This document shows, in pieces, positions 22,291 through 61,069 of a stretch of DNA of 64,000 nt. The stretch spans positions 94,644,922-94,708,921 of the forward strand of contig CP092872.1 of the NCBI GenBank assembly GCA_030710605.1, read 5' to 3'. How positions within the stretch are numbered: the first letter of the stretch is position 1; each line of letters begins with the position of its first letter. The translations under genes were made by a program, and so were the position numbers. Under the pieces are notes generated by a model. That model made no database searches. It saw only the letters and a list, made by a program, of their open reading frames with translations, and was not told the DNA's origin. The stretch is from Cordylochernes scorpioides. Its lineage: Eukaryota; Arthropoda; Arachnida; Pseudoscorpiones; Chernetidae.

Positions 22291-22649
22291 CAAAATTGTT
22301 TTTATCACACACAAATATTCTAATATATTTCTCTCAATATCACAAGTATTTTGAAATATGTAAATAATAATTTGAACAAAAATAGCATATATCAATAATA
22401 TGTTAATGTGATACTCTTATTGAAGAACTGACAAGTCCGAAAGCTTGAAAATAAAAAGTTTGTATAAGAAACTTAGCCCTGGAAGATTTATTTTATTATA
22501 TTATTGACTCTCCTAATTATTATTGTTACCAAAAAGTATAATACAATAAAGGGATAATATATAATAAAGGGTAGATAAAATGTAGGGAAATATATGTTAT
22601 ATTAAAATATTATTCTTTTTTTTATTTATATATTTATATATATCTATCT

Positions 22650-26540: not shown

Positions 26541-26939
26541 TATATATATATGTAGAAAAAAAAAGGCATTTCCTAATCGTGCAACTTAAAGTTGCTGATG
26601 GCTTCTTAAAGAGAAGGTGGAATATGTTGTTTAAATTAGACTTAAGGTATCATTATTGCTTTTGTCCATAGGAATCAAAATGTGAGAATGGTTCACTTTC
26701 ATCAACAACATTGCGGTTTATCAATAGATTAGATGGCGATATTTGTCAACATTGCGATTTTAAAAAACTATAAGAGATTATTAATGTGCTTCTTCCATCT
26801 TTCGGATATATATTCTTGTACACCTTTTATAAATTGATCCGTGAACGGACAACACTTTTTCCCGATGGCTATGCAAACTTTTATGCAAATTTTTAACAAT
26901 TGTCAGTCTCTTTTGATTGATATATAAATTGAACGTTCC

Positions 26940-28839
26940 TAAACAACCTGACATAACTAACAAGACAGGTACTGTACAAATGGACTTAACAACGGGCTGT
27001 GAAGTGAGAAATGTACGTCCTTACACAACCTGACATATCTAACAAGACAGGTACTGTACATATGGACGTAACAACGGGCTGTGAAGTGAGAAATGTACGT
27101 CCTTACACAACCTGACATATCTAACAAGACAGGTACTGTACAAATGGACGTAAGTCCGGGCTGTGAAGTGAGTAATGTACGTCCTTACACAACCTGACAT
27201 ATCTAACAAGACAGGTACTGTACAAATGGACGTAACAACGGGCTGTGAAGTGAGAAATGTACGTCCTCACACAACCTGACATATCTAACAAGACAGGTAC
27301 TGTACAAATGGACGTAACAACGGGCTGTGGAGTGAGAAATGTACGCCCTCACACAACCTGACATATCTAACAAGACAGGTACTGTACAAATGGACGTAAC
27401 AACGGGCTGTGGAGTGAGAAATGTACGCCCTCACACAACCTGACATATCTAACAAGACAGGTACTGTACAAATGGACGTAAAAACGGGCTGTGGAGTGAG
27501 AAATGTACGCCCTCACACAACCTGACATATCTTACAAGACAGGTACTGTACAAATGGACGTAACAACGGGCTGTGGAGTGAGAAATGTACGCCCTCACAC
27601 AACCTGACATATCTAACAAGACAGGTACTGTACAAATGGACGTAACAACGGGCTGTGAAGTGAGAAATGTACGTCCTTACACAACCTGACATATCTAACA
27701 AGACAGGTACTGTACAAATTGACGTAACAACGGGCTGTGAAGTGAGAAATGTACGTCCTCACACAACCTGACATATCTAACAAGACAGGTACTGTACAAA
27801 TGGACGTAACAACGGGCTGTGAAGTGAGAAATGTACGTCCTCACACAACCTGACATATCTAACAAGACAGGTACTGTACAAATGGACGTAACAACGGGCT
27901 GTGAAGTGAGAAATGTACGTCCTTACACAACCTGACATATCTAACAAGACAGGTACTGTACAAATGGACGTAACAACGGGCTGTGAAGTGAGAAATGTAC
28001 GTCCTTACACAACCTGACATATCTAACAAGACAGGTACTGTACAAATGGACGTAACAACGGGCTGTGAAGTGAGAAATGTACGTCCTTACACAACCTGAC
28101 ATATCTAACAAGACAGGTACTGTACAAATGGACGTAACAACGGGCTGTGAAGTGAGAAATGTACGTCCTTACACAACCTGACATATCTAACAAGACAGGT
28201 ACTGTACAAATGGACGTAACAACGGGCTGTGAAGTGAGAAATGTACGTCCTTACACAACCTGACATATCTAACAAGACAGGTACTGTACAAATGGACGTA
28301 ACAACGGGCTGTGAAGTGAGAAATGTACGTCCTTACACAACCTGACATATCTAACAAGACAGGTACTGTACAAATGGACGTAACAACGGGCTGTGAAGTG
28401 AGAAATGTACGTCCTTACACAACCTGACATATCTAACAAGACAGGTACTGTACAAATGGACGTAACAACGGGCTGTGAAGTGAGAAATGTACGTCCTCAC
28501 ACAACCTGACATATCTAACAAGACATGTACTGTACAAATGGACGTAACAACGGGCTGTGAAGTGAGAAATGTACGTCCTTACACAACCTGACATATCTAA
28601 CAAGACATGTACTGTACAAATGGACTTAACAACGGGCTGTGAAGTGAGAAATGTACGTCCTCACACAACCTGACATATCTAACAAGACAGGTACTGTACA
28701 AATGGACGTAACAACGGGCTGTGGAGTGAGAAATGTACGTCCTCACACAACCTGACATATCTAACAAGACAGGTACTGTACAAATGGACGTAACAACGGG
28801 CTGTGAAGTGAGAAATGTACGTCCTCACACAACCTGACA
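26940..28839. repeat. Satellite array, 82-bp unit, about 23 copies
   Basis: The unit contains ACAGGTACTGTACAAATGGACG, TAACAACGGGCTGTGAAGTGAG, AAATGTACGTCCTTACACAACC and TGACATATCTAACAAG (82 bp). Most copies differ at one or two sites, chiefly GTGAAG/GTGGAG and CCTTAC/CCTCAC, and variants cluster in runs (GTGGAG in about 27330-27590). A single GTCCGGG variant occurs near 27150. The array ends abruptly at both sides in unrelated sequence. Open frames on the minus strand simply follow the repeat. Confidence 0.9.
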
Positions 28840-29213
28840 ACATTGTAATCCCCAGTGCACAGACCATTCATTAGCACAATTAGATATTGATCCGTTCCAC
28901 TTCATTTACGCTGTCTGTCCACACCGGCAGCCTAATTGCCCCAACTTGGTGTTCCAGAACAACTCTCCACACAATCCTCTTTCAGACAACAATCATTTAA
29001 TAAAGCGACATCTGCGAAAATGGTAACAACATCACCGCTAGTTCTTTTTTCCCACTTTTCTAATTGAGAGCTACTCCTCTAGACATTACTGAATTACTGA
29101 AATGGGAGTACAAAAAGTCTAACTGCCTAGCTCATCATTTGTAAACCCTCTTAGAAATTTTACAAACTCAATCTTTGTAAAACACCCTCAGATTCTATTG
29201 GACTGTACGTCTT
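28840..29213. other. Array flank with a K-family relic
   Basis: 28840-29090 shows nothing recognisable. 29095-29190 resembles a strongly decayed K-family element (TTACTGAAATGGGAG, CTAGCTCATCATTTGTAAACCCTC). Confidence 0.3.
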
Positions 29214-29812: not shown

Positions 29813-29916
29813 GTAAATATGTACAATTTAAAGTTAAAGTTAACATTAAGCATATATTTTTTGTTCTGAAAATAGAGCAATCCATACTTAAATCATTAGA
29901 TAATAAAAAGGCATAT

Positions 29917-30254
29917 TGTTGCACCAGGTTGCGGCTTGGCAGACTCTTCAGGCATGATTCTCTCCTGTGCTGGGTCTTGCATCTTACCAGAGCGTGTTTC
30001 AACCATCCTACAAATTTATATAAGGGAATAATGAGATAAGTCTACTTTAAGTAGCCTCCAGAATAATTTATTTATTTCCTCACATCAAAGAGAGCAGTGA
30101 AGTCACACGTGTACCTAAATACAAATGATGATAATCTAAAAAATAATCTGTTTTAAATAAATATCATAGAATATAAAAATAAATAAATATATAATTTAAA
30201 TTTCAAATATATTAAAAATGATATAAGAAATACGCCATTAATCATGATGGAACA
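29917..30254 (-). repeat. 3' LTR of the Ty3/gypsy element
   Basis: 338 bp. Identical to 34776-35113 except GGAACA versus GTAACA at the terminal edge. It holds the last codons and stop of pol (TAA at 30240-30238). Confidence 0.92.
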
Positions 30255-33200
30255 CTTCCCCCTCTCCAGAGGTCGTCACGTCCTCGTGAGTTACCTCATC
30301 AATTCTCTCAAAATAGGGTTTGAGTCTTGAGACATGGACAATCAATGGGTCTTGGCCAGGATTATCTTTCGGCTCAATTAAGTAATTTACGTTAGACAGC
30401 TTCTTTAATATTCGATATGGGCCAAAATATTTTCTCAATAGTTTTTCACATTTTCCGATTTTCCTGACTGGTGTCCAAACTGCCACTAAATGTCCTGGTT
30501 CATAGATTTTCTCATTGTGTTTTTTGTCATAGTTTCTTTTCATTCTTTCCTGAGTCTTCTCTGTGTTGTTAATGACTACCTGTCTCGTCCTTGCTATTTT
30601 ATCTAAGTAGTTTTCTATATATTCGTCGTAATCGTCCATGTTACTGTCCGTTGGGATATTCTCGTCGTCTAAGAGGGACATGGGTTCCCTTCCAAACAAC
30701 AGGAAAAATGGAGAGTAGCCTGTGGTTTCTTGAATCGTGGTATTATACGCGTGGGTGATAAAAGGGAGGATTTCATCCCAGTTCTTTTGGTCTGTGTTCA
30801 CATACATGCTGATCATATTGATTAAAGTTCTATTTAGCCGTTCCGTTAGTCCGTTAGTCTGGGGGTGGTAGCTCGTTGTGAAGCAGTGTTTCACTTTGCA
30901 CATTTTCATTACCTCCTTCATCAAATTGCTAGTGAATTGTGAACCTCTATCGCTAATAAGAAATTTTGGGGCCCCGTGACGTAAAATAATATGTTCGATT
31001 AAAAATGTAGAGACTTCTTTCACGGTTGCTTCTGATACTGCCTTTGTTTCAGCATACTTGGTATAATAATCAGTCAACACAATTATCCACTTCCTTCTTC
31101 TTTTCGTTGATGGCAAGGGGCCAACAAAGTCAATTCCGATTCTTTCAAAAGGGTAGTTAGCTGGGGGAATAGGTTGTAGAAGTCCAGAAGGCAAGTGATT
31201 TGAACCTTTCCGACTTTGGCAAAGATGGCACGTCTTTACAAATTCTGAAACATCTTTCAACATGGAAGGCCAATAGTATTTATTCTTCAATCGGTAAGTG
31301 GTTCTGGCGACGTCCAGATGGCCATTCAGCATATGGTTGTGGTATTCACTCATGACTTCCTTCCTTCTCTTCTTTGGCACTACCAGCAACCATGCCCTAC
31401 CTTCAGGATTTGGATTTTTCTTGTAGAGACACCCATTTTCTTCTTTGAAGTTCTGTGTAATTGAACGCTTGTTTCCACTAAGGTTCTCCTTAATATTCTC
31501 AATAAAATCATCCTTTTCGTCTATTATTTGATTCAGAAATAGTCTTTGATAATCTTCGTCCCATTCGTTTTCAGGTAAGGGTCCTCTAGATAGACCATCA
31601 GCGTCCAGATGTTTTTTACCCGATTTGTGTATAATTTCGAAATTATATTCCTGAATCTTCAGTGCCCATCGTGCTAATCGGCCGGTCGGATCTTTCAGAT
31701 TCTTAAGCCAGCATAGTGCGTGATGATCAGTTACGATTTTGAAGTGCCTTCCATATAGGTAGGGTCGTAACTTGGACATTGACCACACAACAGCTAGACA
31801 TTCTTTTTCGGTAGTCGAATAATTTTGCTCAGGTTTGCTCAGTGTTCGACTTAAATATGAGATAACTTTTTCTTTATCGCCGAACTTTTGGACTAATGTT
31901 GCACCCAGGCCGATGTTAGATGCGTCAGTATGAATGTAAGTAATTGCATTCGGGTCAAAGTGCCCTAAGATTGGAGGATTTATCAATGCTACTTTAAGGG
32001 TTTGAAATGCTTTTTCTTGATTTTCTGTCCAGGTAAAAGGTACATTCTTTTTTATAAGACTGGTTAATGGATCGGCAATTTTTGAAAAACCTTTGATAAA
32101 TTTTCTATAATATGAGCATATTCCTAAAAATGATTGAACTTCTTTTATCTTTTTGGGCCGAGGAAAATCTCTAATAGCCTTGATATTATGCTCCGCTGGT
32201 TTTATACCATGTTGATTAGTTATATGGCCAAGAATCTCCAGTTCTTCGAAAGCAAATTGGCATTTTTTGTTGTTCAATTTTAAATTAGCCTCGCGAAAAC
32301 ATTTTAAAACAGCTTCTATTCTTTTGAGATGTGTTGAAAAATCCGAGCTATAAATGATTACGTCATCTAGATAACATAAGCAAATTTGCCATCTAAGATT
32401 ACCAAGCATATTTTCCATGTTCCTCTCAAATGTAGCAGGGGCATTGCATAGACCAAAGGGCATTACGTTGAACTCATATAGGCCATGTGCTGTAGTGAAG
32501 GCTGTCTTTTCTTTATCTTTCTCCTCAACCTCTACTTGCCAATATCCTGATTTAAGGTCGATTGCTGAAAAGTATTTGGATCCTTGAAGTGTATCCAATA
32601 CTTCATCAATTCTGGGAATTGGGTAAACATCCTTCACTGTTACATCATTCAATTTTCTGTAGTCAACGCAAAATCTGTACTTACCATCTCGCTTCTTGAC
32701 CAAGATTACAGGGAAGGACCATGGACTCGAGGATGGTCTAATTATGCCGTCTCTGAGCATTTCATCAATTTGTTCTTTTATGATTTCTCGCTCTTTCGCG
32801 CTCACCCTATACGGCTTGTGTTTGATCGGTTTCGCGCCTTCTGTATCGATCCGATGTTTCGCTAAGTTGGATCTTCCTAATCCAGACGAAAACAAATCCT
32901 CGTACCTTTCCAAAACTTGTTTCAATTGCTCCTTTTCCTTATATGCTAAATTTTCGTTTATCTGAAATTGGGGTTCTTCATGCTCTTTTTGTTCACTTTC
33001 TTCCACAAGATTCACTTCGGCTGGCTGGCTTCCAAAGCACAATGTTTGGTTTTTTAATATTTTTAATGGTCGAGGGTAAGGGTTTGTTATCCAGATATAT
33101 GTTTCCTTATTCACAACATTTATTAAGCTTCTCGCTAGTCGAAGTCCATTTGTTTGAAACATTTTATGGTTCTCCTCGATGATGTATTCGCCATCCTCTG

Positions 33201-33711
33201 CTTCTACAAATGCATTAATCAATTTAATAGAAAGTTCTGGTATAATGGCATCCTTTGCACTTTTTATTTTCTTCTGTTGATATTTGATTACGTCACGATT
33301 TTCTGTCAAGTCATATTTGATTATTTCACGCTGACAATCAATTTTTGCGTTCATTTTCTTAAGAAAATCACGTCCAAGTATAAATATTCGCAAATGTGTT
33401 CTCATTATCACAAATTGATGTGTGATTGTTTTGTCATCAAATTTTATATTTAAAATAATATTTCCTACGATATCTAATTCTTTGCCATCGGGTCCAGAGC
33501 ACATTTTATCAGGATTTATTATTTCAAGACCTGTGTTGAGAGCTGTATTAAGGTCGACCACTGAAAGATCGGCGCCTGTATCAATCAAAGCTTCGCAGAT
33601 ACCGATTCTATCCACGTTAATGTTCATTTTATATTTGGGGTCCAACTTTTTAATTCCATTTATGGTCGACTTGCTTTGATTGACGGACTCAGGCGCGATG
33701 TTTAGTTTAAA
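30238..33711 (-). CDS. pol: Pol polyprotein (protease, reverse transcriptase, RNase H, integrase)
   Basis: The frame is uninterrupted and lies -1 to gag. Counting from a TTG codon at 33645, protease has the DTG active site near residue 22 and ILGRDFL near 90. Reverse transcriptase spans about 270-450 with YRFCVDYRKLN, FSAIDLKSGYWQ and the catalytic YLDD near 426. RNase H follows (HTDASNIGLGA, later DHHALCWL). Integrase has the HHCC zinc segment (NGHLDVARTTY..CHLCQ), then the DDE residues in IGIDFVGPLP, DRGSQFTS and NGLTERLNR. A GPY/F-like end (YFGPYRILKKL) closes it. There is no ATG near the start; expression by frameshift at 33705-33711 is likely. The stop lies inside the 3' LTR. The domain order with integrase last is that of Ty3/gypsy. 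Confidence 0.92.
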   Translation of the reverse strand, partial: FKLNIAPESVNQSKSTINGIKKLDPKYKMNINVDRIGICEALIDTGADLSVVDLNTALNTGLEIINPDKMCSGPDGKELDIVGNIILNIKFDDKTITHQFVIMRTHLRIFILGRDFLKKMNAKIDCQREIIKYDLTENRDVIKYQQKKIKSAKDAIIPELSIKLINAFVEAEDGEYIIEENHKMFQTNGLRLARSLINVVNKETYIWITNPYPRPLKILKNQTLCFGSQPAEVNLVEESEQKEHEEPQFQINENLAYKEKEQLKQVLERYEDLFSSGLGRSNLAKHRIDTEGAKPIKHKPYRVSAKEREIIKEQIDEMLRDGIIRPSSSPWSFPVILVKKRDGKYRFCVDYRKLNDVTVKDVYPIPRIDEVLDTLQGSKYFSAIDLKSGYWQVEVEEKDKEKTAFTTAHGLYEFNVMPFGLCNAPATFERNMENMLGNLRWQICLCYLDDVIIYSSDFSTHLKRIEAVLKCFREANLKLNNKKCQFAFEELEILGHITNQHGIKPAEHNIKAIRDFPRPKKIKEVQSFLGICSYYRKFIKGFSKIADPLTSLIKKNVPFTWTENQEKAFQTLKVALINPPILGHFDPNAITYIHTDASNIGLGATLVQKFGDKEKVISYLSRTLSKPEQNYSTTEKECLAVVWSMSKLRPYLYGRHFKIVTDHHALCWLKNLKDPTGRLARWALKIQEYNFEIIHKSGKKHLDADGLSRGPLPENEWDEDYQRLFLNQIIDEKDDFIENIKENLSGNKRSITQNFKEENGCLYKKNPNPEGRAWLLVVPKKRRKEVMSEYHNHMLNGHLDVARTTYRLKNKYYWPSMLKDVSEFVKTCHLCQSRKGSNHLPSGLLQPIPPANYPFERIGIDFVGPLPSTKRRRKWIIVLTDYYTKYAETKAVSEATVKEVSTFLIEHIILRHGAPKFLISDRGSQFTSNLMKEVMKMCKVKHCFTTSYHPQTNGLTERLNRTLINMISMYVNTDQKNWDEILPFITHAYNTTIQETTGYSPFFLLFGREPMSLLDDENIPTDSNMDDYDEYIENYLDKIARTRQVVINNTEKTQERMKRNYDKKHNEKIYEPGHLVAVWTPVRKIGKCEKLLRKYFGPYRILKKLSNVNYLIEPKDNPGQDPLIVHVSRLKPYFERIDEVTHEDVTTSGEGEVFHHD
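30255..30267 (-). promoter_or_regulatory. Polypurine tract
   Basis: GGAGAGGGGGAAG lies directly upstream of the 3' LTR in element orientation, the expected primer site for plus-strand DNA synthesis. It is also coding sequence of pol. Confidence 0.8.
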
Positions 33712-34865
33712 TCTTCTAATGCGGCATATCTATTCCTTGTAGGGATACTCGAGTACGGGCTATTACTTACGTCCGCGTAGAGCAGAGGTCTCGACTTCTG
33801 AGTTCCATTATCCATTCGGATTTCTTCTTCGACCTTGTCTTGTGTAACTATGGGGTCCTCTTCCACAATTCTTACAAACCTGACTCTGCAATACCGCGCT
33901 ACGTGTCCTGGCTTGTTACACTTGAAACATATTGGTCTCCCGTCTTCTGTCCTATTCCTATTTGAATTTGGATTCTTATTGTATGTTTTACTTGGGTAGA
34001 CCGGTTTTGGCTCAGGATTGGGAGTATAAGATCGTCTAGGGGCAGATACCTGGGGCAGAGGCTTGTTCTGGTAATACCTCGGAGTGGGGGCCTGGGGCTT
34101 GGAGGTGTTCTGGTAGTACCTCGGAGCGGGGGCCTGGGGCTTGGAGGTGTTCTGATATGGTCTTCTGAACGACGTAGCATTCTTCCATTGCTCTTGATGA
34201 TGGGGACGAGGAGAGCGTGGTCCATTATAAAGAGCTTTTGATTTTTCTGCACGTTCTTGGTAATTCTTTTCGAACAAATCCAGCTTTTTACAAATTTCTA
34301 GAAGTTCATTGGTATTTTTAGGAGGGTTTAGGTGAAGGGCAAAAGAGTATTCTTTCTTTAACCCTCCAATAACCCAGTTTATTTTAGTCTCTTCTTCCAT
34401 TTGGGGGTCGACCTTGTTGCACAGTACAAGGATATCCTCTGCGAACCTGATTGCAGGTTCATTCCACTGCTGCATTCTGTTTAGCCTCATCTTCATTTCT
34501 TCTTTGTTGGCGTCTGAGGCAAAATCCTGAATTAGGCGGCTCTTGAAATTTTCCCAGCTGGTGAAACTTATCTTGTGTAGGTTCAGCCAGGTTTTGGCGC
34601 TACCAATCATATTCATGGCAGCATAACGAGAGATAATGTAGTCTGCCCAATGGTACAGGAAGCCAATTTCTTCAAGAGATTCAATCCATGGGCGAGGGTC
34701 TTCCGTTCCATCAAACTTGGGGATGTCGATGTTGGGATTCAGGACAACTGGGTCGGAACTAGCATCTCTACCAATTGTTGCACCAGGTTGCGGCTTGGCA
34801 GACTCTTCAGGCATGATTCTCTCCTGTGCTGGGTCTTGCATCTTACCAGAGCGTGTTTCAACCAT
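33702..34865 (-). CDS. gag: Gag protein with CCHC zinc knuckle
   Basis: 387 residues, intact. The ATG (34865) lies in the 5' LTR and the first 30 codons are LTR sequence. A retrotransposon capsid-type segment covers about 50-190 (WIESLEEIGFLYHWADYI, later WENFKSRLIQDF). A proline-rich middle has imperfect 14-residue tandem repeats of the type YYQNTSKPQAPAPR. One CX2CX4HX4C knuckle (CFKCNKPGHVARYC) lies near 313-326. The frame ends LEDLN at the frameshift site. The role is particle assembly and RNA packaging, inferred from family. Confidence 0.9.
   Translation of the reverse strand: MVETRSGKMQDPAQERIMPEESAKPQPGATIGRDASSDPVVLNPNIDIPKFDGTEDPRPWIESLEEIGFLYHWADYIISRYAAMNMIGSAKTWLNLHKISFTSWENFKSRLIQDFASDANKEEMKMRLNRMQQWNEPAIRFAEDILVLCNKVDPQMEEETKINWVIGGLKKEYSFALHLNPPKNTNELLEICKKLDLFEKNYQERAEKSKALYNGPRSPRPHHQEQWKNATSFRRPYQNTSKPQAPAPRYYQNTSKPQAPTPRYYQNKPLPQVSAPRRSYTPNPEPKPVYPSKTYNKNPNSNRNRTEDGRPICFKCNKPGHVARYCRVRFVRIVEEDPIVTQDKVEEEIRMDNGTQKSRPLLYADVSNSPYSSIPTRNRYAALEDLN
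33705..33711 (-). promoter_or_regulatory. Programmed -1 frameshift heptamer
   Basis: Minus-strand TTTAAAC is read in gag as T-TTA-AAC and is followed immediately by the gag stop TAA (33704-33702). It fits the X-XXY-YYZ rule in the right phase to shift into pol, whose frame is open across this point. Confidence 0.75.
34761..34775 (-). promoter_or_regulatory. Candidate primer-binding site
   Basis: Just inside the 5' LTR the minus strand reads AT-TGGTAGAGATGC. The TGG two bases in is the expected start of a tRNA-complementary site. It is also gag coding sequence. The matching tRNA is not identified. Confidence 0.5.
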
Positions 34866-35113
34866 CCTACAAATTTATATAAGGGAATAATGAGATAAGT
34901 CTACTTTAAGTAGCCTCCAGAATAATTTATTTATTTCCTCACATCAAAGAGAGCAGTGAAGTCACACGTGTACCTAAATACAAATGATGATAATCTAAAA
35001 AATAATCTGTTTTAAATAAATATCATAGAATATAAAAATAAATAAATATATAATTTAAATTTCAAATATATTAAAAATGATATAAGAAATACGCCATTAA
35101 TCATGATGTAACA
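34776..35113 (-). repeat. 5' LTR of the Ty3/gypsy element, containing the gag start
   Basis: 338 bp, almost identical to the 3' LTR. The gag ATG is at 34865-34863, so codons 1-30 are LTR-encoded. Confidence 0.92.
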
Positions 35114-35725: not shown

Positions 35726-37470
35726 TTGTATCATTTCTCTCCTCTCTCTTGTGCCTGCAGCGCAGCCCTATTCTCCATCTTCACCGGTCCCCTCCTGCGC
35801 CACCTGGAGAGAGCTCTCGGAAGAGGGAACGTCCTGGCGTACGCCGATGATATTCTCCTGCTGATCCGTGAAGATTGGCAGTTCGAGAAAGTCAAGACCA
35901 TCTTTGACGAATTCCGGCGTGCGTCAGGAGTATGCGTGAACTTCACCAAGAGTAAGGGACTGTGGTGCGGCGCCTGGAGGGACCGCGCCGACTCTCCGCT
36001 GGGCATCTCGTGGTCCGCCTCTTCTATCACGGTGCTGGGCTGCGAAGTTACATCTGGCCAAGGAAGATCGGTCCAGGAAAATCATCTGCTGGGCATCCTG
36101 GAGAGAGCAATCTCTAGATGGTCTCCATACGTCCGTGGCTTCTCCCTGGTCGGGCGAGCGAGAGCGGCCAACTCGCTGGTACTAGCGGCAGTGCTCCACC
36201 ATCTGCACGGCTACCTGCCCGGCGAAGCCACTATCGCTAAATTACAATTCAGGCTGACGCGGTTCGTCTGGGGGTCCTGCCATCGAGCTGCTTGGCTCCC
36301 GGGAAATCTAATGGCTCGCCCTGTGTCCGTCGGTGGTGCAGGGCTGCTGGATGTAAAGACCCAACTCCAGCTTGCCTGCTTCAAGGGAGTTCAAGCTGCA
36401 TGCCGAGCGGGGGGCAAAAATGCTTATTCATGGCTGGTGGAGTCCGGTGCCTGGATGGCCCCCTTGTCCTCGGGTTCCTGGCTGCTGCCCCGTCGCCGTC
36501 GGCTGCTGGATCTGTGGGAGCAGGTCTCCTCCATCCTGAGCCTGAACCACCGGGTGGTGCCCACTCCCGCCCTAATGAACCTGCCTCTCGTCGGTGCCTG
36601 CAGGTTCCTGGTTACGCCATCGCTTCGGGCTCCTTCAAGGTGGAGTGGAGTGCGCGTCCGCGACCTGGCGGGTCCTGCTACGTCGCTCATCACAAGACTG
36701 ACGAGAAACACCTGCGACGATGCAGCCGCCCTTGGTTCATTCTGCCGCCGTCTGGTGGCGGAAAACGCGGGGAGCTCGCATCAAGAGAGGAGCCTGGAGG
36801 AAGCCGTGGTGCTGCGCGTGACGGCTACGCCGTTCTTGCGCATCAGCACACGCACTGCGCGTCGCATGTTGGAGCGTCCCCGCCTGGCCGCCGTTCCCAT
36901 CTCGCGGTATCTCCGGCGCTGGGCGCCTGTCGTCGACGTGCCCTCCACCAGCCTAGCGTTCTCATCCCTTCGGGGGCCATGCGGCGGACATCGCTCTGCG
37001 GCTGGCCCTGCACGCCCTGCCTCATCCGGGACACCCGGCGTCTAGCCAGCCCGTCTGCATCGCCTGCGGCTCCAGCGACCTGTCGCTGGCCCACCGCTAC
37101 TGGTCCTGCAGTGCCGTCCGCCCTCTTGTCCAAGAGGTGTTTTCCATCATCGGGCGGCCGCCGGACCTGCAGTCCTGGATCTTCGCGGTGGACCTCGAGG
37201 ACCAAGCCATCACTATCTCCTCAGCGGCAAAGCATGCCATCTACGTTTTCTTTGTAGATCGCGAAATGCGTGGTGTCGCTGGGGACCCATTGGCGATCTT
37301 CCATCAAACTCTGCAGCGGTGGCGCCATGTACATAGTTGTATTTTTTAATCATTTTTTGTTATAACCATCATCCTCATTGCAAATTTCTCATTTTCTCAT
37401 AATTAGTGAGGACTGTGCATTTATCTGAATTGACAAGATGTCAATAAAATATGATAATTGTCTCTCTCTC
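35726..37470 (+). pseudogene. Non-LTR retrotransposon ORF2, C-terminal half, frameshifted
   Basis: It starts in the reverse transcriptase palm: TGPLLRHLERALGRGN and the catalytic YADD (NVLAYADDILLLI), then a long thumb/C-terminal region. The first frame stops at 37043-37045. The second frame, entered through a one-base change in the GGGGG run near 36971-36975, carries a Cys/His motif (CIACGSSDLSLAHRYWSC) and ends at 37349. The 3' UTR ends TTGACAAGATGTCAATAAAAT and a TC-rich tail. The upstream part of RT, endonuclease and ORF1 are missing (5' truncation near 35750). The related 3' ends at 42571-42806 and 54489-54640 share this terminus. The clade is uncertain. Confidence 0.75.
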
Positions 37471-38471: not shown

Positions 38472-38920
38472 TACACTCATTGACAAAACTTAAGAAGTGG
38501 AATTCTTTAATGTTGCCGTTCGTCTATATTTTGAAGGGGATAGAGGCAATTTCCTTGACACTTGGTTATCTCGCGTGTCTTCAATAAAGGTCCTGTAATA
38601 TCTTTCAGAGTTATTATCTGAATTCCGATATACATGCTGAAAGATACAACTTCCTTTAGTTTTGTTTATGAGTGTATACACACTTGGTTATCTCGTATGT
38701 CTTCAATAAAGATCACTGTAATATCTTTCAGAGTTATTATCTGAATCTCGATATACATGCTGAAAGGTACAACTTCCTTTAGTTTTGTCCATGAGTGTAT
38801 ATTGGTTATCTCGTGTGTCTACAATAAAGGTCACTGTAATATATTTCAGAGTTATTGTCTCAATCCCGATATACATGCTGAAAGGTACAACTTCCTTAAG
38901 TTTTGTCCATGAGTATAGTT
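38472..38920. mobile_element. CAT-family MITE cluster
   Basis: ACACTCATTGACAAAACTTAAG opens it. GGTTATCTCG..TTCAATAAAG units start near 38564, 38684 and 38803 (spacing about 119 bp), and the last ends TTAAGTTTTGTCCATGAGT. This is the same architecture as 4951-5648. Confidence 0.65.
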
Positions 38921-39084
38921 ACTAAGGTAATTCCTAAAATGGGAACACTTTGTTGTTGGCTGAAGCGCATCTTTTTAATTTTGAGGTTATATAAGCTTTC
39001 AATCGAAAATTTATTTTCTTGATTACAAACAAAATGAAGCTATGAAGAACATTGCTCGATGCAAATATTTGTATGTAATTCTAC

Positions 39085-39360
39085 TGTCCTGAAAGCTTAT
39101 GTCCATAGTTTACTTAAATACCATTTCTAAGATTCCAGCCTTCAGTGTAGCATATATAAGCAGAATGATCCAATACAGTATTAGAGCTCTAAAGAAGCGG
39201 TATGGTAGATTAAAAAAATTGGCGAAACCGCTGGGAGGGTTCACCACTGATGAGCCAAGCCCTTCCAATATTTTCCATCCCAGTAAGGACAGTAGAAGTT
39301 TGTTTTAGGTATAAAAGAAACATTTGTGTTTTAATGATTTCTTTTCATATATATAAAAGG
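39085..39360 (+). mobile_element. K-family element, complete, with intact ribozyme core
   Basis: It begins TTCTACTGTCCTGAAAGCTTATG and its 3' part is CAGTAAGGACAGTAGAAG, so outer ends are inverted. Core: AGCGG 39196-39200, U, A39202 with the predicted cut after it, UGGU, linker, UUGGC-GAAA-CCGCU, GGGAGGG, UUC, ACCA-CUGAUGA-GCCAA, CCCUUCC ending 39267. H17 is A, an allowed base. All hammerhead core positions are present. Confidence 0.65.
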
Positions 39361-39424
39361 CGTGTTATTGCCTTATAATTAGTATATACATTTCTGAAAA
39401 TGATCAACCCATAAATAGATCTTT

Positions 39425-39620
39425 AATTAAAAAGACATATATTGGATCCAAAAAATAATTTAGTTTCCATTATTTCAGTTGGCTGAACGCCAACCTTTTT
39501 CAGGGTTTTTACAATATATAAATATGAAATAAATATGTTGTAAAAACCTCTTTTAAAAAGGTTGGCGTACAGCCAACTGAAATATTGGTAAATAAATTAT
39601 ATTTTGATCCTATATATATA
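39425..39620. mobile_element. Foldback hammerhead-type element
   Basis: Inverted arms with ATATATTGGATCCAAAA, TATTTCAGTTGGCTGAACGCC and AACCTTTTTCAGG. The minus strand of the left arm reads CCTGAAAAAGGTTGGC-GTTCA-GCCAACT-GAAA-TAATGG, close to CUGANGA-stem II-GAAA. Confidence 0.5.
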
Positions 39621-39624
39621 TCTA

Positions 39625-39965
39625 AAGAGACAAAGGTCGCCTCTCCCGTCAAAATAGACGTCAAAACTAGACGCCATCTATTGACCGTCGCCATAAACTA
39701 GCGGCCTCGGGTCGGTGACAAAGCCACAACACCAGCTTTGGCAGACTGAAAAGCGTCCACCTAGAGACCATGATTTCGGGCTAATGGCCCTCGTCAGTCT
39801 AGGGCGGACTTTATTCCATGAGATCCACACGGGATCTAATGGAATCTTGACAATCTGCCAAAGAGGTGTTTTGCTGGCAAAGTGGCTGGGCCAAATCTAT
39901 GGCTAGAATATAGATGGCGTCTAGTTTTGACGGGAGAGGCGACCTTTGTCTCTTTAGATCAATAT
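39625..39965. mobile_element. TIR element carrying a full hammerhead ribozyme
   Basis: Inverted ends CTAAAGAGACAAAGGTCGCCTCTCCCGTCAAAA and its complement at 39930-39960. TAGACGCCATCTAT follows inside both ends. The interior has inverted blocks (CCAGCTTTGGCAGA, complement of TCTGCCAAAG at 39852-39861) and a hammerhead on the minus strand. The smaller relative at 18938-19135 lacks the ribozyme. Confidence 0.65.
39755..39809 (-). ncRNA. Hammerhead ribozyme, complete core with extended stem I
   Basis: On the minus strand: stem I outer GUCC (39809-39806) pairs with GGAC (39758-39755). After a small internal loop, stem I inner CCUAGA (39803-39798) pairs perfectly with UCUAGG (39765-39760). CUGACGA is 39797-39791, stem II GGGC-CAUUA-GCCC 39790-39778, GAAA 39777-39774. 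Stem III AUCAUGGU (39774-39767) is self-complementary with two G-U pairs, so dimer pairing is likely. Cleavage is predicted between C39766 and U39765. The internal loop in stem I is where natural hammerheads make their activating contact. Confidence 0.82.
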
Positions 39966-40597: not shown

Positions 40598-40745
40598 TAT
40601 GATGCATTAGCGCGCCATCTGTTATCAAAATTCGAAACTATTATTGAGCCAGGCCCTCCCATTAATTTTTCCCATTGCAATAAGGGCTGTAGAAATTGTT
40701 TATTTTTAAAAAGAATCCGTATATAATAGTTTCGAATTTTTGATA
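40598..40745. mobile_element. K-family element, internally deleted
   Basis: It begins GATGCATTAGCGCGCCATCTG, keeps GAGCCAGGCCCTCCC and the GCAATAAGGGCTGTAGAAATTG part, then the inverted outer arm TATAATAGTTTCGAA. It is like 22105-22290. Confidence 0.55.
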
Positions 40746-40814
40746 TAAAATATTATTTAGATATAGAAGATTCTTCTCAGTAAGATATGTAGTGATTTAA
40801 TAGAATGAAAGAAG

Positions 40815-41835
40815 ACAAGTTTTGTTAATCATTTAGCGACGCAAGCTTTCGGGCAAAAACCCTTCAACAGGCAAGCTAAAGCATAAATACGACACTATGA
40901 ACGTAGATACTAATGGCTGAAGTGAATATATGTAAATTCGACACTATGAACGTAGATACTAATGGCTGAAGTGAATATATGTAAATACGACACTATGAAC
41001 GTAGATACTAATGGCTGAAGTGAATATATATAAATACGACACTATGAACGTAGATACTAATGGCTGAAGTGAATATATGTAAATACGACACTATGAACGT
41101 AGATACTAATGGCTGAAGTGAATATATGTAAATACGACACTATGAACGTAGATACTAATGGCTGAAGTGAATATATGTAAATTCGACACTATGAACGTAG
41201 ATACTAATGGCTGAAGTGAATATATGTAAATACGACACTATGAACGTAGATACTAATGGCTGAAGTGAATATATATAAATACGACACTATGAACGTAGAT
41301 ACTAATGGCTGAAGTGAATATATGTAAATACGACACTATGAACGTAGATACTAATGGCTGAAGTGAATATATGTAAATACGACACTATGAACGTAGATAC
41401 TAATGGCTGAAGTGAATATATGTAAATTCGACACTATGAACGTAGATACTAATGGCTGAAGTGAATATATGTAAATACGACACTATGAACGTAGATACTA
41501 ATGGCTGAAGTGAATATATATAAATACGACACTATGAACGTAGATACTAATGGCTGAAGTGAATATATGTAAATACGACACTATGAACGTAGATACTAAT
41601 GGCTGAAGTGAATATATGTAAATACGACACTATGAACGTAGATACTAATGGCTGAAGTGAATATATGTAAATACGACACTATGAACGTAGATACTAATGG
41701 CTGAAGTGAATATATATACACATATATTCACTTCAGCCATTAGTATCTACTTTCATAGTGTCGTATTTATGCCTTAGCTTGCCTGTTGAAGGGTTTTTGC
41801 CCGAAAGCTTGCGTCGTTAAATGATTAAAAAAACA
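40815..41835. mobile_element. Foldback hammerhead-type element enclosing a 49-bp array
   Basis: The left arm (ATCATTTAGCGACGCAAGCTTTCGGGC..AAACCC..CAACAGGCAAGCTAA) is repeated inverted at 41760-41835. The plus strand of the right arm reads CUGUUGA-AGGG-UUUUUG-CCC-GAAA-GCUUGCG, a hammerhead-like core with one altered core base. The array lies between the arms. Confidence 0.65.
40884..41718. repeat. 49-bp tandem array, 17 units, with 245-bp higher-order period
   Basis: The unit is TACGACACTATGAACGTAG + ATACTAATGGCTGAAGTG + AATATATGTAAA. Junction variants recur in a fixed cycle of five: TGTAAATTCG, TGTAAATACG, TATAAATACG, TGTAAATACG, TGTAAATACG. The TTCG form starts at about 40933, 41178 and 41423, spacing 245 bp. 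Confidence 0.9.
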
Positions 41836-42440
41836 TGTCTTCTTTCATTTTATTAAATCACAAAATATTATTTAATAATCTAAAATATATAATTACACTC
41901 TCGAAGCCTGGAAACTCAATATGAAATATGTTTTGTAAAAAGTATATATAATGTATCAAAGTGTGTTTCAATGTTTGCATCACATATATATCATTTTCAA
42001 TATGAAGTGAAGTAAACAGATCTCGGTAAATAGCTCCCAGCTGATTCAATTTTGAAACTTTTAAATCTTCCTCTAAAAACTTCAAATGACGCCAAAGCTG
42101 AGGAATCTTTCCCCCATACATATATACCCGCGGCAAATTAGAAATTTGAGAAAAAAGCTAGATCAAACAGAGATGTGCTGAAAGAATTTCTCCATAGAAA
42201 TATTAATTTCCTTCCATTTAGGAATTAAGAACTTAAATCAATCTTTCTGGGTCAATTAGTCGAGAGTAAATATTGAATTTGATGCCTCCCCTTCTCTCTT
42301 GATGGTTTTTTTTTAACAGAGGAGGTTGGAATATTGCTAGTAGAAGGAAGGTTGTTAGTTCGGGTTTCAACATCTAGATGGCAGTGTCTGACGTTTATAT
42401 CTATTTGAGAGAATCGGAATGTAATAAAACAATATATATA
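41836..42440. other. Intergenic, no gene recognised
   Basis: AT-rich. Short minus-strand open frames have no recognisable domain. Confidence 0.35.
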
Positions 42441-49467: not shown

Positions 49468-49700
49468 TAGGCATATCCTGTTCGCGTCACATGAGCTTTA
49501 TAGATGGCAGAGCGCCATCTAGTGGAACAGAAATCAACTAAACGTTAATTTAACCTCTTCCCTGATATCTGGCCAACCCAATTTCTTAAAAAATCAAGAA
49601 AAGACAACCACGAACGCGTTTCGGGCTGTTGGGCCTCGTCAGCGTGGTGCACGCTGTAACTCTACGACCAAAATTCTTTTGGTACCAGAGGCTTCTTGAG
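49468..49700 (-). mobile_element. Penelope-type short element
   Basis: GGCATATCCTGTTCGCG, TAGATGGCAGAGCGCCATCTAGTGG, AACTAAACGTTAATTTAACC, ATTTCTTAAAAAATCAAG, then the ribozyme. Module order is as in 13912-14130. Confidence 0.6.
49604..49653 (-). ncRNA. Hammerhead ribozyme, near-intact
   Basis: Minus strand: ACCACG-CUGACGA-GGCC-CAACA-GCCC-GAAA-CGCGUU-CGUGGU. Stem I pairs perfectly (ACCACG/CGUGGU) and ACGCGU is palindromic. One stem II base is changed (GGGC to GGCC), giving a mismatch. The predicted cleavage base is U. Confidence 0.7.
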
Positions 49701-49746
49701 AACTAATTTAAAAAAAGGGTATTTAAGGCCAAACTTTCGTAACATA

Positions 49747-49850
49747 TATATTTGCTCATCAGTGGTGAACTCTCTCAGCGGTTTCGCCAGTTTGATTTAC
49801 CACTGATGAGCCCCAAGTCCTCTCAATATATATTTGCAATTATTTAGTTA
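49747..49850 (-). mobile_element. K-family partial foldback
   Basis: The minus strand has CTGGC-GAAA-CCGCT, GAGAGAG, ACCA-CUGAUGAGC; the plus strand starts ACCACTGATGAGCCCC. There is no AGCGG strand. Confidence 0.5.
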
Positions 49851-49859
49851 TTTGAATGT

Positions 49860-50165
49860 AATTCTACTGTCCTATAAGCTTATATCCATAGTTTTCTTGA
49901 AAACCATTTCTGAGATTCCATCCTTCAGTGCTGCGTATATAATCAGAATCATCCAATACAGTATTAGAACTCTGAGAAGCGGTCTGGTGGATTAAATTGG
50001 CGAAACCGCTGGGAGGGTTCACCACTGATGAGCCAAGCCTTCCCAATACATATTTTTTCATCGCAGTGAGGACAGTAGAAGTTTGTATTATGTATAAAAG
50101 AAACATTCGTGCTTTTAAATTCTTTCATTTTATATGTATAGATGGCGCGTTATTACTTTGTGTTA
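49860..50165 (+). mobile_element. K-family element, reference copy
   Basis: It starts TTCTACTGTCCTATAAGCTTATATCC and its 3' part is GCAGTGAGGACAGTAGAAG, then AACATTCGTGC and ATAGATGGCGCGTTATTAC. Similar 5' modules (ATTCCATCCTTCAGTG, ATCCAATACAGTATTAGA) occur at 39085 and 55720-55500. It encodes no protein. Confidence 0.65.
49978..50044 (+). ncRNA. Candidate kissing-loop hammerhead ribozyme
   Basis: Strand order: AGCGG 49978-49982, U, C49984 (predicted cut after it), UGGU 49985-49988, linker of 8 nt, UUGGC 49997-50001, GAAA 50002-50005, CCGCU 50006-50010, GGGAGGG 50011-50017, UUC, ACCA 50021-50024, CUGAUGA 50025-50031, GCCAA 50032-50036, G, CCUUCCC 50038-50044. Helix III (AGCGG/CCGCU) and helix IV (GGGAGGG/CCUUCCC) make two hairpins. 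Helices I (UGGU/ACCA) and II (UUGGC/GCCAA) join their loops. All conserved hammerhead bases, including the G10.1-C11.1 and C15.2-G16.2 pairs, are present. Confidence 0.55.
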
Positions 50166-51019: not shown

Positions 51020-51965
51020 TACATAGTGTGATCAATAATTTACAGGAATGCTAAATATTTAAAGAAATACAAAAGTATAATAAAGTTTTATTTAAAATTT
51101 CTCAAAATAATGACAGTCACTATCTATACACTTGTTCCATCTTTTTTTTTTCCGGATATCAAAACACCTCTGAAAATCCTCATCTTTCAGGCTTTTCAAA
51201 ATATTCTTCGAATTCTCCTTCATTTCAGGTATTGAGTCAAATCGAGGTCCTTTTAAGACTCTTTTAATTTTAGGGTAAAGGAAAAAGTCGTTGAGAGCAA
51301 GGTCAGGAGAATAGGGTGGCTGGGGGAGTAAAGCAATTCCGAGTTTAGCCAAATAGAGTTGTACAGTGACTGCTGTATGTGGCCGTGCGTTGTCATGACG
51401 CAAGAGACAATTTTTCTGATGCCATTTTTCGGGTCTTTTCTGACGCATAGGCTCTCTTAAACGTCGCAATACATCAAGATAGTAATGTTGATTAATGGTC
51501 TGACACTCGGGCACGAATTCATAGTGTACCAATCCCTTTACATCAAATAAAGTGATAAGAAGACACTTAAGCTTCGATTTGAACATCCTTGCTTTCTCTT
51601 GCTTATTCGACAAGCTTTTAATCGTGCAAACCATTCAAATGTCCTCGATTGTGATCGGGCATCTTCTTTAAAAGCCTGCTTCAAGATTTTAAATGATTCG
51701 GAAGCTGTTTTCCCTAATTTAAAGCAAAACCCTATGCAGACTCGCTGTTTTTCAATACAGTCCATACTGAAATTTAAAAATGTTCTGATATACTCGAGCT
51801 TATAAATTCGATAAAACGTGAGCGCGTGCGTCTATGTGATATATTTTTATTTCTACGTGTTGATAAATGTTTTATCTATAAGGTCTCCTTATAAAATTAT
51901 TTCATTATTTTGAATATTTTACGTGATCCAGTCTCATTCCTGGAAATTATTGATCACACGTTGTA
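51020..51965 (-). mobile_element. Mariner-type transposon with both terminal repeats
   Basis: The left end TACATAGTGTGATCAATAATTTACAGG and the right end, complement TACAACGTGTGATCAATAATTTCCAGG, are inverted repeats at TA sites. The element is about 945 bp, shorter than a full mariner, because the middle of the gene is deleted. Confidence 0.8.
51092..51765 (-). pseudogene. Mariner transposase, internally deleted and frameshifted
   Basis: The N-terminal helix-turn-helix part (51765 to about 51620) reads EKQRVCIGFCFKLGKTASES and FEWFARLK. It then breaks into another frame that resumes near LFDVKGLVHYEFVP, the first catalytic Asp region. The second Asp is in LLRHDNARPHTA and the third in PDLALNDFFLYPKIK, with 34 residues between them, the D,D34D mariner signature. 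The C terminus runs to a stop at 51092. The DNA-binding to linker region is missing, so it is inactive. Confidence 0.8.
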
Positions 51966-54640: not shown

Positions 54641-55020
54641 AGAAGAAACGTAATTTTTTTTAATTAAAACAAAGCTCCTTTATTTTTTACCAGAAGGAAC
54701 TTTTAATATGGAAGGGATCAGCTATAAGTATAAACTGTACAGGCATAGCTGTACATAATGTGACCATAAAAGCATATTTCCATAGAACTTTCACCTAACG
54801 ATGTCCTAAACTTAACATAATATTGCCTTAACACTAACCTGACTATGCAAATAAAAAAAGTTGCCATATATACAGATATGCAACTTAAAATATATATACA
54901 TCAATAGTCAATATATAAATAGACAAGGGATTAATATTCTTCACAGAAATATTCTCGATTTGTGTCCTACTGTCAACTGTAATAGCCATAAAAATTTATT
55001 TGAACCTTAGAGTCAATATA
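54641..55020. other. No gene recognised
   Basis: AT-rich, nothing supported. Confidence 0.35.
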
Positions 55021-55065
55021 AAATGAAAGGATTTAAAAGCACGAATGTTTATTTTAAACAAGTAT

Positions 55066-55494
55066 TCTATATACAGTTACGAGCGTCATTCCTCATCTCC
55101 TAATCAACAATCAGTCATCAGTTTTCATCTCTGTCACCGTTTGCTTTTTTTTTTGGAATGGCGCCCTCCTATTGGTTGGCTACGGTCACGCCACCTTTGC
55201 CCCCCCCCCCCCCCACTCGCCTTTTCGTTTATGTAATTATTGTGTTGGAGCGGGTCGCTCCTTAAATAAATGCATATATTAGTTAATAACCAAATGGAAT
55301 CCTCTCTTTCTTTTTCCCAGTAAGAGACGCCTACGGGAGCCAACAGTACATAGACAGATAAAACACATAGGCTATAGTTATTAACTAACATATGCATTTA
55401 TATAAGGCGCCAATTTATAATTGTAACAAATAGTATTTAAATCAAAACATTCAATCGGGTAAAACACGGGCGTTGCCCGGGTCATTCGGCTAGT
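55066..55494 (+). mobile_element. Non-autonomous Helentron-like element, copy 2
   Basis: Same ends and interior as 53313-53773. It interrupts a K-family element: ACGAATGTTTATTTTAAACA lies before it and TTTTACATATAAAACAAACTTTTACTG after it. Confidence 0.65.
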
Positions 55495-55722
55495 TTTACA
55501 TATAAAACAAACTTTTACTGTCCTTACTGCAATGAATAAATATTTGGAGTGCTTGGCTTATCAGTGGTGAACTCTCCCAGCGTTTTCGCCAATTCAATCT
55601 ACCAGACTGCTTCTTTAGAGCTCTAATACTGTATTGGATCCTTCTGCTTATATATGCTACACTGAAGATTGGAATCTTAGAAATGGTATTTAGGCAAACT
55701 ATAAACATAAGCTTTTAGGACA
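55495..55722 (-). mobile_element. K-family element with a decayed core
   Basis: Minus strand: AGCAGUC-UGGU, UUGGC-GAAA-ACGCU, GGGAGAG, ACCA-CUGAUAA-GCCAA. Helix III is broken and G8 of the core is A, so it should be inactive. The 5' modules ATTCCAATCTTCAGTG and ATCCAATACAGTATTAGAGC are intact. Confidence 0.6.
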
Positions 55723-55901
55723 GTAGAACCTCTATGAAAGGACACTCACGCTTGAGCACACCTCTCTACAAAGGACAGTTTTCATTTGCAAAATTACTAT
55801 TTTTACTATTTAGCAACTCCCCGGTAAGAAGACACCTCTTCCTAGAGGACACTTTGGCTTTGTTATTATGTGTTGTCCTTTACAGGGAGGTAGTTCTACT
55901 G
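55721..55901. mobile_element. Pogo/Tigger-like MITE
   Basis: Inverted ends CAGTAGAACCTCTATGAAAGG and its complement-like CTTTACAGGGAGGTAGTTCTACTG. Its first bases coincide with the outer end of the K-family element (AGGACAGTAGAA). Confidence 0.6.
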
Positions 55902-56916
55902 TGGTGGATAATATAATAGCGTATAATATTTTACTATGGACATAAGCTATAAATGTTTAAATATATCATTGAAAAAAACCTTTTTACATTAAACTTTTCA
56001 ACAAAAAAAAAAATCTCTATTCTTGTGTGAAGTACATATTCTCCCTATAACGTGAAATACAATTGAAGTCAATGTAATTTGAAATGGAAAATTTTCCCAT
56101 TTACCACTTCTCAATAATTCAACCATGACGTACACTTTTAAGATTCAGCCTATTTTAAATTTTTCCAATTTGAAAAAAAAAATTCTCTTTTCCTTTCCTT
56201 TTTTGTTTTGTTCAAAATTAAAACAGAGGAACATTCAATTAAATAATCCTCCCCCAGTCAAATGTGTTGTATAAATTCCATTCTATGAAAATAAAGTTAT
56301 TTAGAAAAGACGGAAATGTACGAGAAAAATAAGAATTTTTACATTTATTTCTGTGACAGGAAGCCATTTCTGTGAATAACTAAAATGTAATAATTTTAAC
56401 TCTGTGATTTTTTCTTTATTTTCTTTCCCCCTTTCTCTATTATATCTCACTTCCTCCTTTTCATCCTTTTTGACAATAAACTGTGTTGAAAATTGAATTT
56501 TCACTCTGTGAATTGTAATAAGAAAATTTTGCTTACTACTATTAAAATAATAGGTTTCTTGCGCGCGCGCGCGTAAATAGTTTATTGTTCGTCTGCTACA
56601 TATTTACATAACTAATGCTAGCGAGTATCCGGCGGCTTCTCCCGGTTGTAATCTTATTCGAATTTTGCCTAACAACGGTTATCAGCAGTATAAAATTCAT
56701 TAATATACCATTGTCATCATTTTTTTATTTTATAAAATATGCAAATAAGTTAGTTATTAGTTTAATTTGTGTTAAGGCTTTGAATACACTATATTTTTTA
56801 ACTGAATCTTCATCAATACATATATTTGTTTTTTTAAAAAATCGATTAAATTTTATTAATAGTTTTAATATAAAAGAGTGAAAGTGGCCTTTGAATCTCC
56901 CTCCCTTGTATATATG
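55902..56916. other. Intergenic, no gene recognised
   Basis: AT-rich, with a GC dinucleotide run (CGCGCGCGCGCG) at about 56561-56573. The 88-codon frame at 56615-56881 is hydrophobic low-complexity without a domain. Confidence 0.35.
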
Positions 56917-59612: not shown

Positions 59613-59889
59613 CAAAATCGACTGAGTTCATGTAGCCGAAAATACTGTTTTAAATGGATAGAAAGGTAGACAGAGTGAGGTACAGGAAGGAAATCAAAGC
59701 GAAAGCCTTACCCGGCAACACCCGACTTTATTTAAAATGCGGACCCCATAAAAAAGAAGGTGTTTGGTGTTAGCTGTGACACACCCTATGGTGACATTTG
59801 GACACCCGCCAAGACCTGTCGGGACTCGTGACCTACAGTAGGCGACATCTACCGTGGTGGTGACATCTAGCGGGGCTGTCCTGTAGACT

Positions 59890-60985
59890 GATCTTCATCA
59901 CCCGAAACTCGTCTTGTATATCTCCTTCATCACCCGAAAGTCGTCTTGCATATCTCCTTCATCACCCGAAAGTCGTCTTGCATATCTCCTTCATCACCCG
60001 AAAGTCATCTTGCATATCTCCTTCATCACCCGAAACTCGTCTTGCATATCTCCTTCATCACCCGAAACTCGTCTTGCATATCTCCTTCATCACCCGAAAG
60101 TCGTCTTGCATATCTCCTTCATCACCCGAAAGTCGTCTTGCATATCTCCTTCATCACCCGAAACTCGTCTTGCATATCTCCTTCATCACCCGAAACTCGT
60201 CTTGCATATCTCCTTCATCACCCGAAAGCCGTTTTGCACATCTCCTTCATCACCCGAAAGCCGTCTCGCATATCTCCTTCATCACCCGAAAGTCGTCATG
60301 CATATCTCATTCATCACCCGAAAGTCCGTCTTGCATATCTCCTTCATCACCCGAAAGTCGTCTTGCATATCTCCTTCATCACCCGAAAGTCGTCTTGCAT
60401 ATCTCCTTCATCACCCGAAAGTCGTATTGTATATCTCCTTCATCACCCAAAAGTTGTCTTGTATATCTCCTTCATCACGCGAAAGTCGTCTTGCATATTT
60501 CCTTCATCACCCGAAATTCGTCTTGCATATCTCCTTCATCACCCGAAAGTCGTCTTGTATATCTCCTTCATCACCCGAAAGTCGTCTTGCATATCTCCTT
60601 CATCACCCGAAAGTCGTCTTGCATATCTCCTTCATCACCGAAAGTTGTCTTGCATATCTCCTTCGTCACCCGAAAGTCGTCTTGCATATCTCCTTCATCA
60701 CCCGAAAGTCGCCTTGCATATCTCCTTCATCACCCGAAACTCGTCTTGCATATCTCCTTCGTCACCCGAAAGTCCGTCTTGTATATCTCCTTCATCACCC
60801 GAAAGTCGTCTTGCATATTTCCTTCATCACCCGAAACTCGTCTTGCATATCTCCTTCATCACCCGAAAGTTGTCTTGCATATCTCCTTCATCACCCGAAA
60901 GTCGTCTTGCATATCTCCTTCATCACCCGAAAGTCGTCTTGTATATCTCCTTCATCACCCGAAAGTCGTCTTGCATATCTCCACT
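59890..60985 (+). repeat. 32-bp minisatellite, about 34 units
   Basis: The unit is TCTCCTTCATCACCCG + AAAGTCGTCTTGCATA. Variants include AAACTC for AAAGTC, and GTATA for GCATA. Two one-base insertions (GTCCGTC near 60325 and 60774) and one deletion (CACCGAAAG near 60640) shift frame. All three forward frames stay open because no stop falls in any phase of the unit. No start context or domain suggests translation. Confidence 0.9.
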
Positions 60986-61069
60986 CTATCCTATTGAGAT
61001 TGTCACAAGTCAATTTATAAGAAATTTACTCCATTTTTGAAGCGTATGATTCGGTTTAAAATAAAACAA

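Follow-up and report, generated by a model that had tools for sequence, protein, structure and literature searches.

The sequence at positions 49978–50044 of the window (the whole 64-kb stretch of Cordylochernes scorpioides DNA analyzed here) raises the question of whether a set of letters that includes every conserved part of a hammerhead ribozyme, but arranges its strands in an order from which no flat three-way junction can be drawn, represents a ribozyme, and if so of what kind. The reading as a hammerhead in a non-planar order is well supported, and the locus is probably a type-SGC hammerhead ribozyme, one of the copies that a short dispersed repeat has spread in an arachnid genome. The topology of the motif is already known, and what is new is probably its host and setting.

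The core, its strand order and its fold

The core at 49978–50044 is complete on the plus strand, its letters being read directly from the sequence, and it consists of helices I, II and III of 4, 5 and 6 bp together with a 7-bp outer stem (Table 1). The conserved pairs G10.1-C11.1, C15.2-G16.2 and A15.1-U16.1 are all present, and the same core is found in the family consensus. The sequence-only reading had listed these nucleotides, pairs and helices, which are borne out letter by letter, and its claim of a non-planar order also holds, as the strand with the UH cleavage site (S) comes first, that with GAAA (G) second, and that with CUGAUGA (C) third, giving the order SGC. The hairpin AGCGGU/ACCGCU carries in its loop C and UGGU on either side of the predicted cut, the 8-nt linker and UUGGC-GAA, and it is adjoined with no linker by the hairpin GGGAGGG/CCUUCCC, the loop of which holds ACCA-CUGAUGA-GCCAA. 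Helix I can form between UGGU and ACCA and helix II between UUGGC and GCCAA, with both pseudoknotted with helix III. In the 49978–50044 copy helix I can be extended to 7 bp (UGGUGGA/UUCACCA, with one G-U), and its fifth pair is an A.C mismatch in the family consensus. Folding restricted to nested pairs placed both hairpins in the minimum-free-energy structure of all three sequences tested, namely the 49978–50044 copy, the 39195–39266 copy and the family consensus (z-scores of −1.8, −2.6 and −2.5), in agreement with the two-hairpin arrangement proposed earlier; the longer stretch 49970–50060 has a fold z-score of −1.41.

Table 1. Positions of the motif parts, repeat copies and head-to-head pairs in the window, with core changes of individual copies.
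Feature	Position	Strand	Basis or remark
Helix III, 5' strand AGCGGU (final U is U16.1)	49978–49983	+	sequence
C17, the H of UH	49984	+	sequence; predicted cut 49984/49985 by analogy with type SGC as described in PMC10085705
Helix I, first strand UGGU	49985–49988 (to 49991 if extended)	+	sequence; one pair with two-sided change
Linker joining helix I and II strands, 8 nt, GGAUUAAA	49989–49996	+	sequence
Helix II, first strand UUGGC	49997–50001	+	sequence; one pair with two-sided change
GAAA (last A paired in helix III)	50002–50005	+	sequence
Helix III, 3' strand ACCGCU	50005–50010	+	sequence and fold
Outer stem, 5' strand GGGAGGG	50011–50017	+	sequence, fold and one two-sided pair change
UUC between outer stem and helix I strand	50018–50020	+	sequence
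Helix I, second strand ACCA	50021–50024	+	sequence
CUGAUGA	50025–50031	+	sequence
Helix II, second strand GCCAA	50032–50036	+	sequence
Single G before outer stem 3' strand	50037	+	sequence
Outer stem, 3' strand CCUUCCC	50038–50044	+	sequence and fold
Repeat copy carrying the motif	49851–50150	+	profile positions 2–299
Second copy passing the strict core search	39196–39266	+	predicted cut 39202/39203
Head-to-head pair of partial copies	49744–49835	.	minus arm starts at consensus 136
Head-to-head pair	16214–16515	.	arms start at consensus 135 and 142
Partial copy with inverted ends and 13-bp candidate target duplication	22105–22303	+	
Copy 4414			U16.1 to C
Copy 9463			U16.1 to G
Copy 8870			core altered to CUUGAUGA
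Copy 55556			core altered to CUGAUAA
Copy 63931			G10.1 to A

At the Rfam gathering thresholds the window contains no hammerhead and three tRNA matches only, and below threshold the minus strand has a Hammerhead_II match at 49746–49789 that scores 16 bits against a cut-off of 37. A conventional hammerhead in the repeat was ruled out, since no window site in a classical order (CGS, GSC or SCG) passes the strict 4/4/4-bp search and the 16-bit match falls on an inverted copy; a MIR7723 match (31.8 bits, cut-off 200) was likewise dismissed, as it spans inverted copies.

Chance expectation was taken from a search for CUGANGA, GAAA and UH connected through three helices, run in the six strand orders on both strands of the window and on dinucleotide shuffles. 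At 4/4/4 bp the window has two sites, 39243 and 50021, both in SGC order, which count as one independent event because they are copies of one repeat. The bare core of this size appeared at 53 sites over the six orders in 4000 shuffles, or about 0.013 per window (1 in 75), with nine of the sites in SGC order and one of these nine having an outer stem of at least 5 bp. Helices of 4/4/5 bp in SGC order were found at three sites in the 4000 shuffles, and at none in combination with an outer stem of at least 5 bp, while smaller 4-bp sets gave no site in 60 shuffles and five sites in four of 300 shuffles. At 3/3/3 bp the window holds three SGC sites and one CGS site, with 67 sites in all orders (14 of them SGC) in 300 shuffles, and at 2/3/2 bp it holds 13 sites in four orders, with 121 sites in 100 shuffles, loosened helices yielding CGS, SCG and GCS sites in the window besides SGC. 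The window thus exceeds the shuffles in the looser searches too, and the excess at 2/3/2 bp extends beyond SGC, an effect presumably of the repeat, which brings so many CUGAUGA words that sites in every order become more frequent.

The repeat family and covariation among its copies

The sequence-only reading treated the motif as a single locus, which proved mistaken, as the repeat to which it belongs is dispersed through the window in many copies. A profile of nine copies returns 32 rows, many of them partial and 25 with E below 1e-3, values that are not independent evidence because the profile was made from window copies. The region at 49851–50150 is 85% identical over 311 nt to 39066–39369, and two words of the repeat, ACCACTGATGAGC and GGCGAAACCGCT, each have 17 window matches at two mismatches or fewer (0.85 and 1.91 expected, respectively), a few of which lie outside the family. 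In the profile consensus the type-SGC core is complete; H17 is A, and the predicted cut falls at 135/136. Two of the nine aligned copies pass the strict core search; read by eye, the core letters are intact in four (50021, 39243, 13546 and 10936, the last with stems I and III damaged) and carry a disabling change in the other five (4414, 8870, 9463, 55556 and 63931), a decay pattern that has the look of old transposon copies. A family-specific exact pattern had no match in the genome contigs searched and none in viral contigs. A looser pattern matched at least 120 stretches of viral contigs, and 120 of these (1.07 Mb) gave 88 GSC, one SCG, one CGS and no SGC site, counts that check the strand-order scan and are no survey of SGC, since the looser pattern favors type II.

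A tRNA-derived SINE was ruled out as the source of the family, with tRNA-like sequence occurring in the window only at 14725, 14816 and 19420 (two genes by ARAGORN, three matches in Rfam). Ahead of the ribozyme, in window positions 49930–49975, a TATA-like TATATAAGCAG or a near form of it lies about 25 nt upstream of CAGTATTAG, and it recurs at the equivalent place in copies 39243, 55556 and 5725 and is missing from some others; judged by its letters, it is possibly a promoter of the repeat. The words AGATGGCG and CGCCATCT recur at or near repeat ends (49500–49530, 50140–50150, 21430, 22280 and 63770) and are also found in unrelated-looking places.

Of 15 copies compared, nine span the whole motif and make up the main alignment, from which we left out 16413, 16331 and 49754, whose starts coincide with or adjoin the predicted cut, so that the S strand is missing, and the degenerate copies 5725, 62367 and 29130. 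Standard pairs occupy 91.2% of its 194 cells, as against 34–51% when the partners are slid by one to three columns, and of the two crossing helices, helix I is 97% and helix II 93% paired. One pair each of helix I (G-C to A-U, in two copies), helix II (U-A to C-G, in one copy) and the outer stem (G-C to A-U, in three copies) changes on both sides, while helix III has in this alignment no two-sided change and breakage only. In comparison with 500 shuffles, the percentage paired is reached by none, the covariation score by one and the count of two-sided cells by three, whereas the number of two-sided pairs is reached by 161 and that of pair types by 469. A second alignment of 11 rows, in which 8870 is removed and three partial copies are added, is 88.8% paired over 214 cells (34–56% with slid partners), and none of 500 shuffles attains its eight two-sided cells, whereas 35 attain its four two-sided pairs; row 16413 is misplaced in it by one base in the outer stem, and the fourth of the pairs is discounted and three are kept, because copy 49754 lacks the 3' strand of the outer stem there. 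Each two-sided change may be a single event in a subfamily. The sequence-only reading had named a lack of covariation in helices I and II as one outcome that would refute it; with one two-sided pair found in each, this refutation does not arise, though the copies are few.

Relation to type SGC and competing readings

The sequence-only reading also held that no hammerhead with such a topology had been described, which is wrong, as type SGC was published in 2023 with mutation and compensation tests by Eckert, Friedrich, Weinberg and Weinberg (Eckert et al. NAR 2023, PMC10085705), who define six strand orders and present it as the first natural non-circular permutation of the hammerhead. Type SGC comprises 583 predicted sequences from environmental data, none of which comes from a known organism's genome, and it cleaves in vitro at the predicted site at 0.007–0.13 per min, in measurements made during transcription and described as in cis, with activity lost and then rescued by changes in stems I, II and III and in the stem joining I and II. 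A few of these ribozymes have a zero-nucleotide junction between stem III and the joining stem, an arrangement that, in the authors' own view, is difficult to reconcile with the crystal structure (PMC10085705).

Judged by this published motif description, the pseudoscorpion motif is similar to type SGC in its S-G-C order, in CUGANGA, GAAA, UH and stems I–III, in having stems I and II connected by a linker on one side and by an additional stem on the other, and, as in the few published cases, in having stem III meet the outer stem without a linker. It differs in a linker between I and II that is 8 nt long, where 3 nt is described as typical, in a stem I of 4 bp in the repeat consensus compared with 5 bp in the type-SGC ribozyme HRIMA-1, and in being multi-copy in the genomic DNA of an animal, whereas the published examples are described as without a known-organism genome. 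The cut that had been placed between 49984 and 49985 gains support as to its position from the analogy with type SGC. Hammerheads of types I, II and III (orders CGS, GSC and SCG) share the core letters and three helices, but not the strand order, with helices I and II of the pseudoscorpion motif being pseudoknotted with helix III. Metazoan retrozymes (Cervera and de la Pena 2020, PMC7229834) resemble the pseudoscorpion repeat as short non-coding hammerhead repeats of animal genomes that are probably non-autonomous retroelements, and differ from it in that their hammerheads are of type I and stand in tandem, whereas the order in the pseudoscorpion repeat is SGC and no head-to-tail pair was seen among its 32 profile rows in the window. 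A literature search by titles and abstracts among journal papers, mostly those outside subscription, returned no animal genomic case of type SGC.

If the motif behaves as a type-SGC hammerhead, the loops of the two hairpins would pair in the RNA to form helices I and II, thereby restoring the normal active site of a hammerhead, and self-cleavage would follow between 49984 and 49985. The resemblance might instead be due to chance, in a foldback repeat whose two hairpins carry hammerhead-like letters and have no RNA function, and hairpins at the DNA level would indeed account for helix III and the outer stem, just as the 53 bare cores in 4000 shuffles, the few copies and the few independent changes leave some room for accident; we consider this very improbable, given that the full SGC motif, with a helix III of 5 bp and the outer stem, never arose in those shuffles and that helices I and II, needed by no DNA hairpin, are nevertheless nearly completely paired and each show a two-sided change. 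It is unlikely, though more credible than coincidence, that an active type-SGC ancestor has left only relics, so that the present copies, 49978–50044 included, are untranscribed or non-cleaving in the animal, a view suggested by the disabling core changes in five of the nine aligned copies and opposed by 49978–50044 and 39196–39266, in both of which the core is undamaged and satisfies the strict search. The ribozyme could also act between two RNA molecules, as a dimer or in trans, with loop-to-hairpin pairing across molecules instead of in cis, which we regard as improbable: the junction of helix III and the outer stem without a linker, where the crystal structure as discussed in PMC10085705 has the far ends apart, and the dimeric hammerheads reported for vertebrate retrozymes (PMC7229834) argue for it, but the few type-SGC ribozymes that likewise have no linker belong to a type for which cleavage is reported in cis (PMC10085705).

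A type-SGC hammerhead in a multi-copy family of an animal whose genome has been sequenced would give the type a host and a heritable DNA context, and such a family would probably offer many natural variants for the study of covariation, as well as a role in a mobile element that could be tested. It also suggests that hammerhead searches confined to types I–III miss cases in animal repeats.

Movement of the repeat and other features of the window

Copies arranged head to head bear on how the repeat moves. The start of the minus arm in the 49744–49835 pair, consensus position 136, is the base that directly follows the predicted cut, and the two arms of this pair meet at the helix I complement, TGGT/ACCA, while the 16214–16515 pair has inverted ends of 46 nt that are 100% complementary (16226–16271/16481–16526). 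Eight arm starts could be placed on the consensus, at 135, 142, 136, 169, 172, 180, 169 and 187, and with only two of the eight at the cut their link to it is no more than suggestive. Further inverted ends occur in the 22152 copy (22105–22152/22220–22267, 48 nt, 96%), at 40627–40644/40723–40740 (18 nt, 100%) and at 21229–21323/21330–21424 (95 nt, 91%), and a repeat search found no inverted pair joining copy ends in 38800–39700 or 55000–56000. Flanks picked by eye were compared for target duplications, and the 13-bp direct repeat flanking the 22152 copy is matched in length by 12 of 20000 random window pairs, whereas the evidence is weak for the 8-bp repeat at the 16376 copy (282 of 20000) and for a 7-bp repeat at another copy (734 of 20000). 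Although the best duplication flanks the 22152 copy, the left arm of this copy lacks its outer portion. Foldback copies of the 3' part of the repeat at 21229–21424 and 24583–24675 are joined near the outer stem and not at the cut, and as their flanks are alike they are maybe copies of one larger element.

With less confidence than for the ribozyme itself, we suggest that the repeat may be a non-autonomous retroelement moved by the reverse transcriptase of another element, and that the cut may fix where the copied RNA begins at its 5' end; head-to-head copies starting at the cut would thereby be accounted for. A cDNA ending there could fold its 3' ACCA back on an internal TGGT, and extension would then produce a junction like that at 49744–49835. 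The whole of this scheme, in which a type-SGC hammerhead works in an animal retroelement, with its cut as the 5' end, ACCA/TGGT foldback priming and head-to-head copies at the cut, is offered tentatively and may well not hold; if true, no earlier non-circularly permuted ribozyme would have been known with covariation support from an identified organism's genome, nor any tied to transposition. Penelope-like elements are similar in being animal retroelements that contain a hammerhead, prefer AT-rich targets and have unusual copy arrangements (PMC11167929), and different in their classical strand order, with no GIY-YIG or Penelope protein identified in the window. As they insert in vitro without need for hammerhead activity, and no reads start at the presumed hammerhead cut (PMC11167929), these results speak against assuming a role for the cut in the pseudoscorpion repeat. 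Eight window ORFs scanned against Pfam gave no GIY-YIG match, and the analysis identified no reverse transcriptase belonging to the repeat family; an ORF with an RVT_1 match lies at 35726–37045.

The carrier might instead be a cut-and-paste DNA element, a MITE with inverted ends in which the ribozyme is a passenger, and we hold this to be a serious possibility, if short of an even one. The four sets of inverted ends, two of them perfect, and the 8-bp direct repeat at the 16376 copy are what such an element would display, but its duplications would be expected to agree, whereas the candidates are of unequal length (13, 8 and 7 bp) and the two shorter ones are weak, the strongest flanks a copy that has lost the outer left arm, and no end-joining inverted pair was found for the copies in the two regions searched. 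Overall the analysis leans away from cut-and-paste transposition and toward target-primed reverse transcription with 5' inversion.

The window contains other mobile and repetitive sequence. Residues 180–680 of a gypsy polyprotein at 30238–33645 are 99–100% identical to several C. scorpioides proteins, and two 300-nt stretches flanking the gypsy gag-pol pair, 29915–30214 and 34774–35073, are 100% identical and probably represent the LTRs of an element that was inserted recently. Protein searches with two other window ORFs returned no match; one of the two, on the minus strand at 2541–3356, has a TMEM192 match in Pfam. A partial mariner-type transposase (Transposase_1) lies on the minus strand at 51092–51634. 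Tandem arrays are found at 4998–5711 (119-nt unit), 26845–28948 (82 nt), 40737–41869 (49 nt) and 59773–61033 (32 nt), and relatives of the 119-nt unit occur at 14200, 38593–38917, 57054, 58550 and 63193, some of them near copies of the ribozyme repeat.
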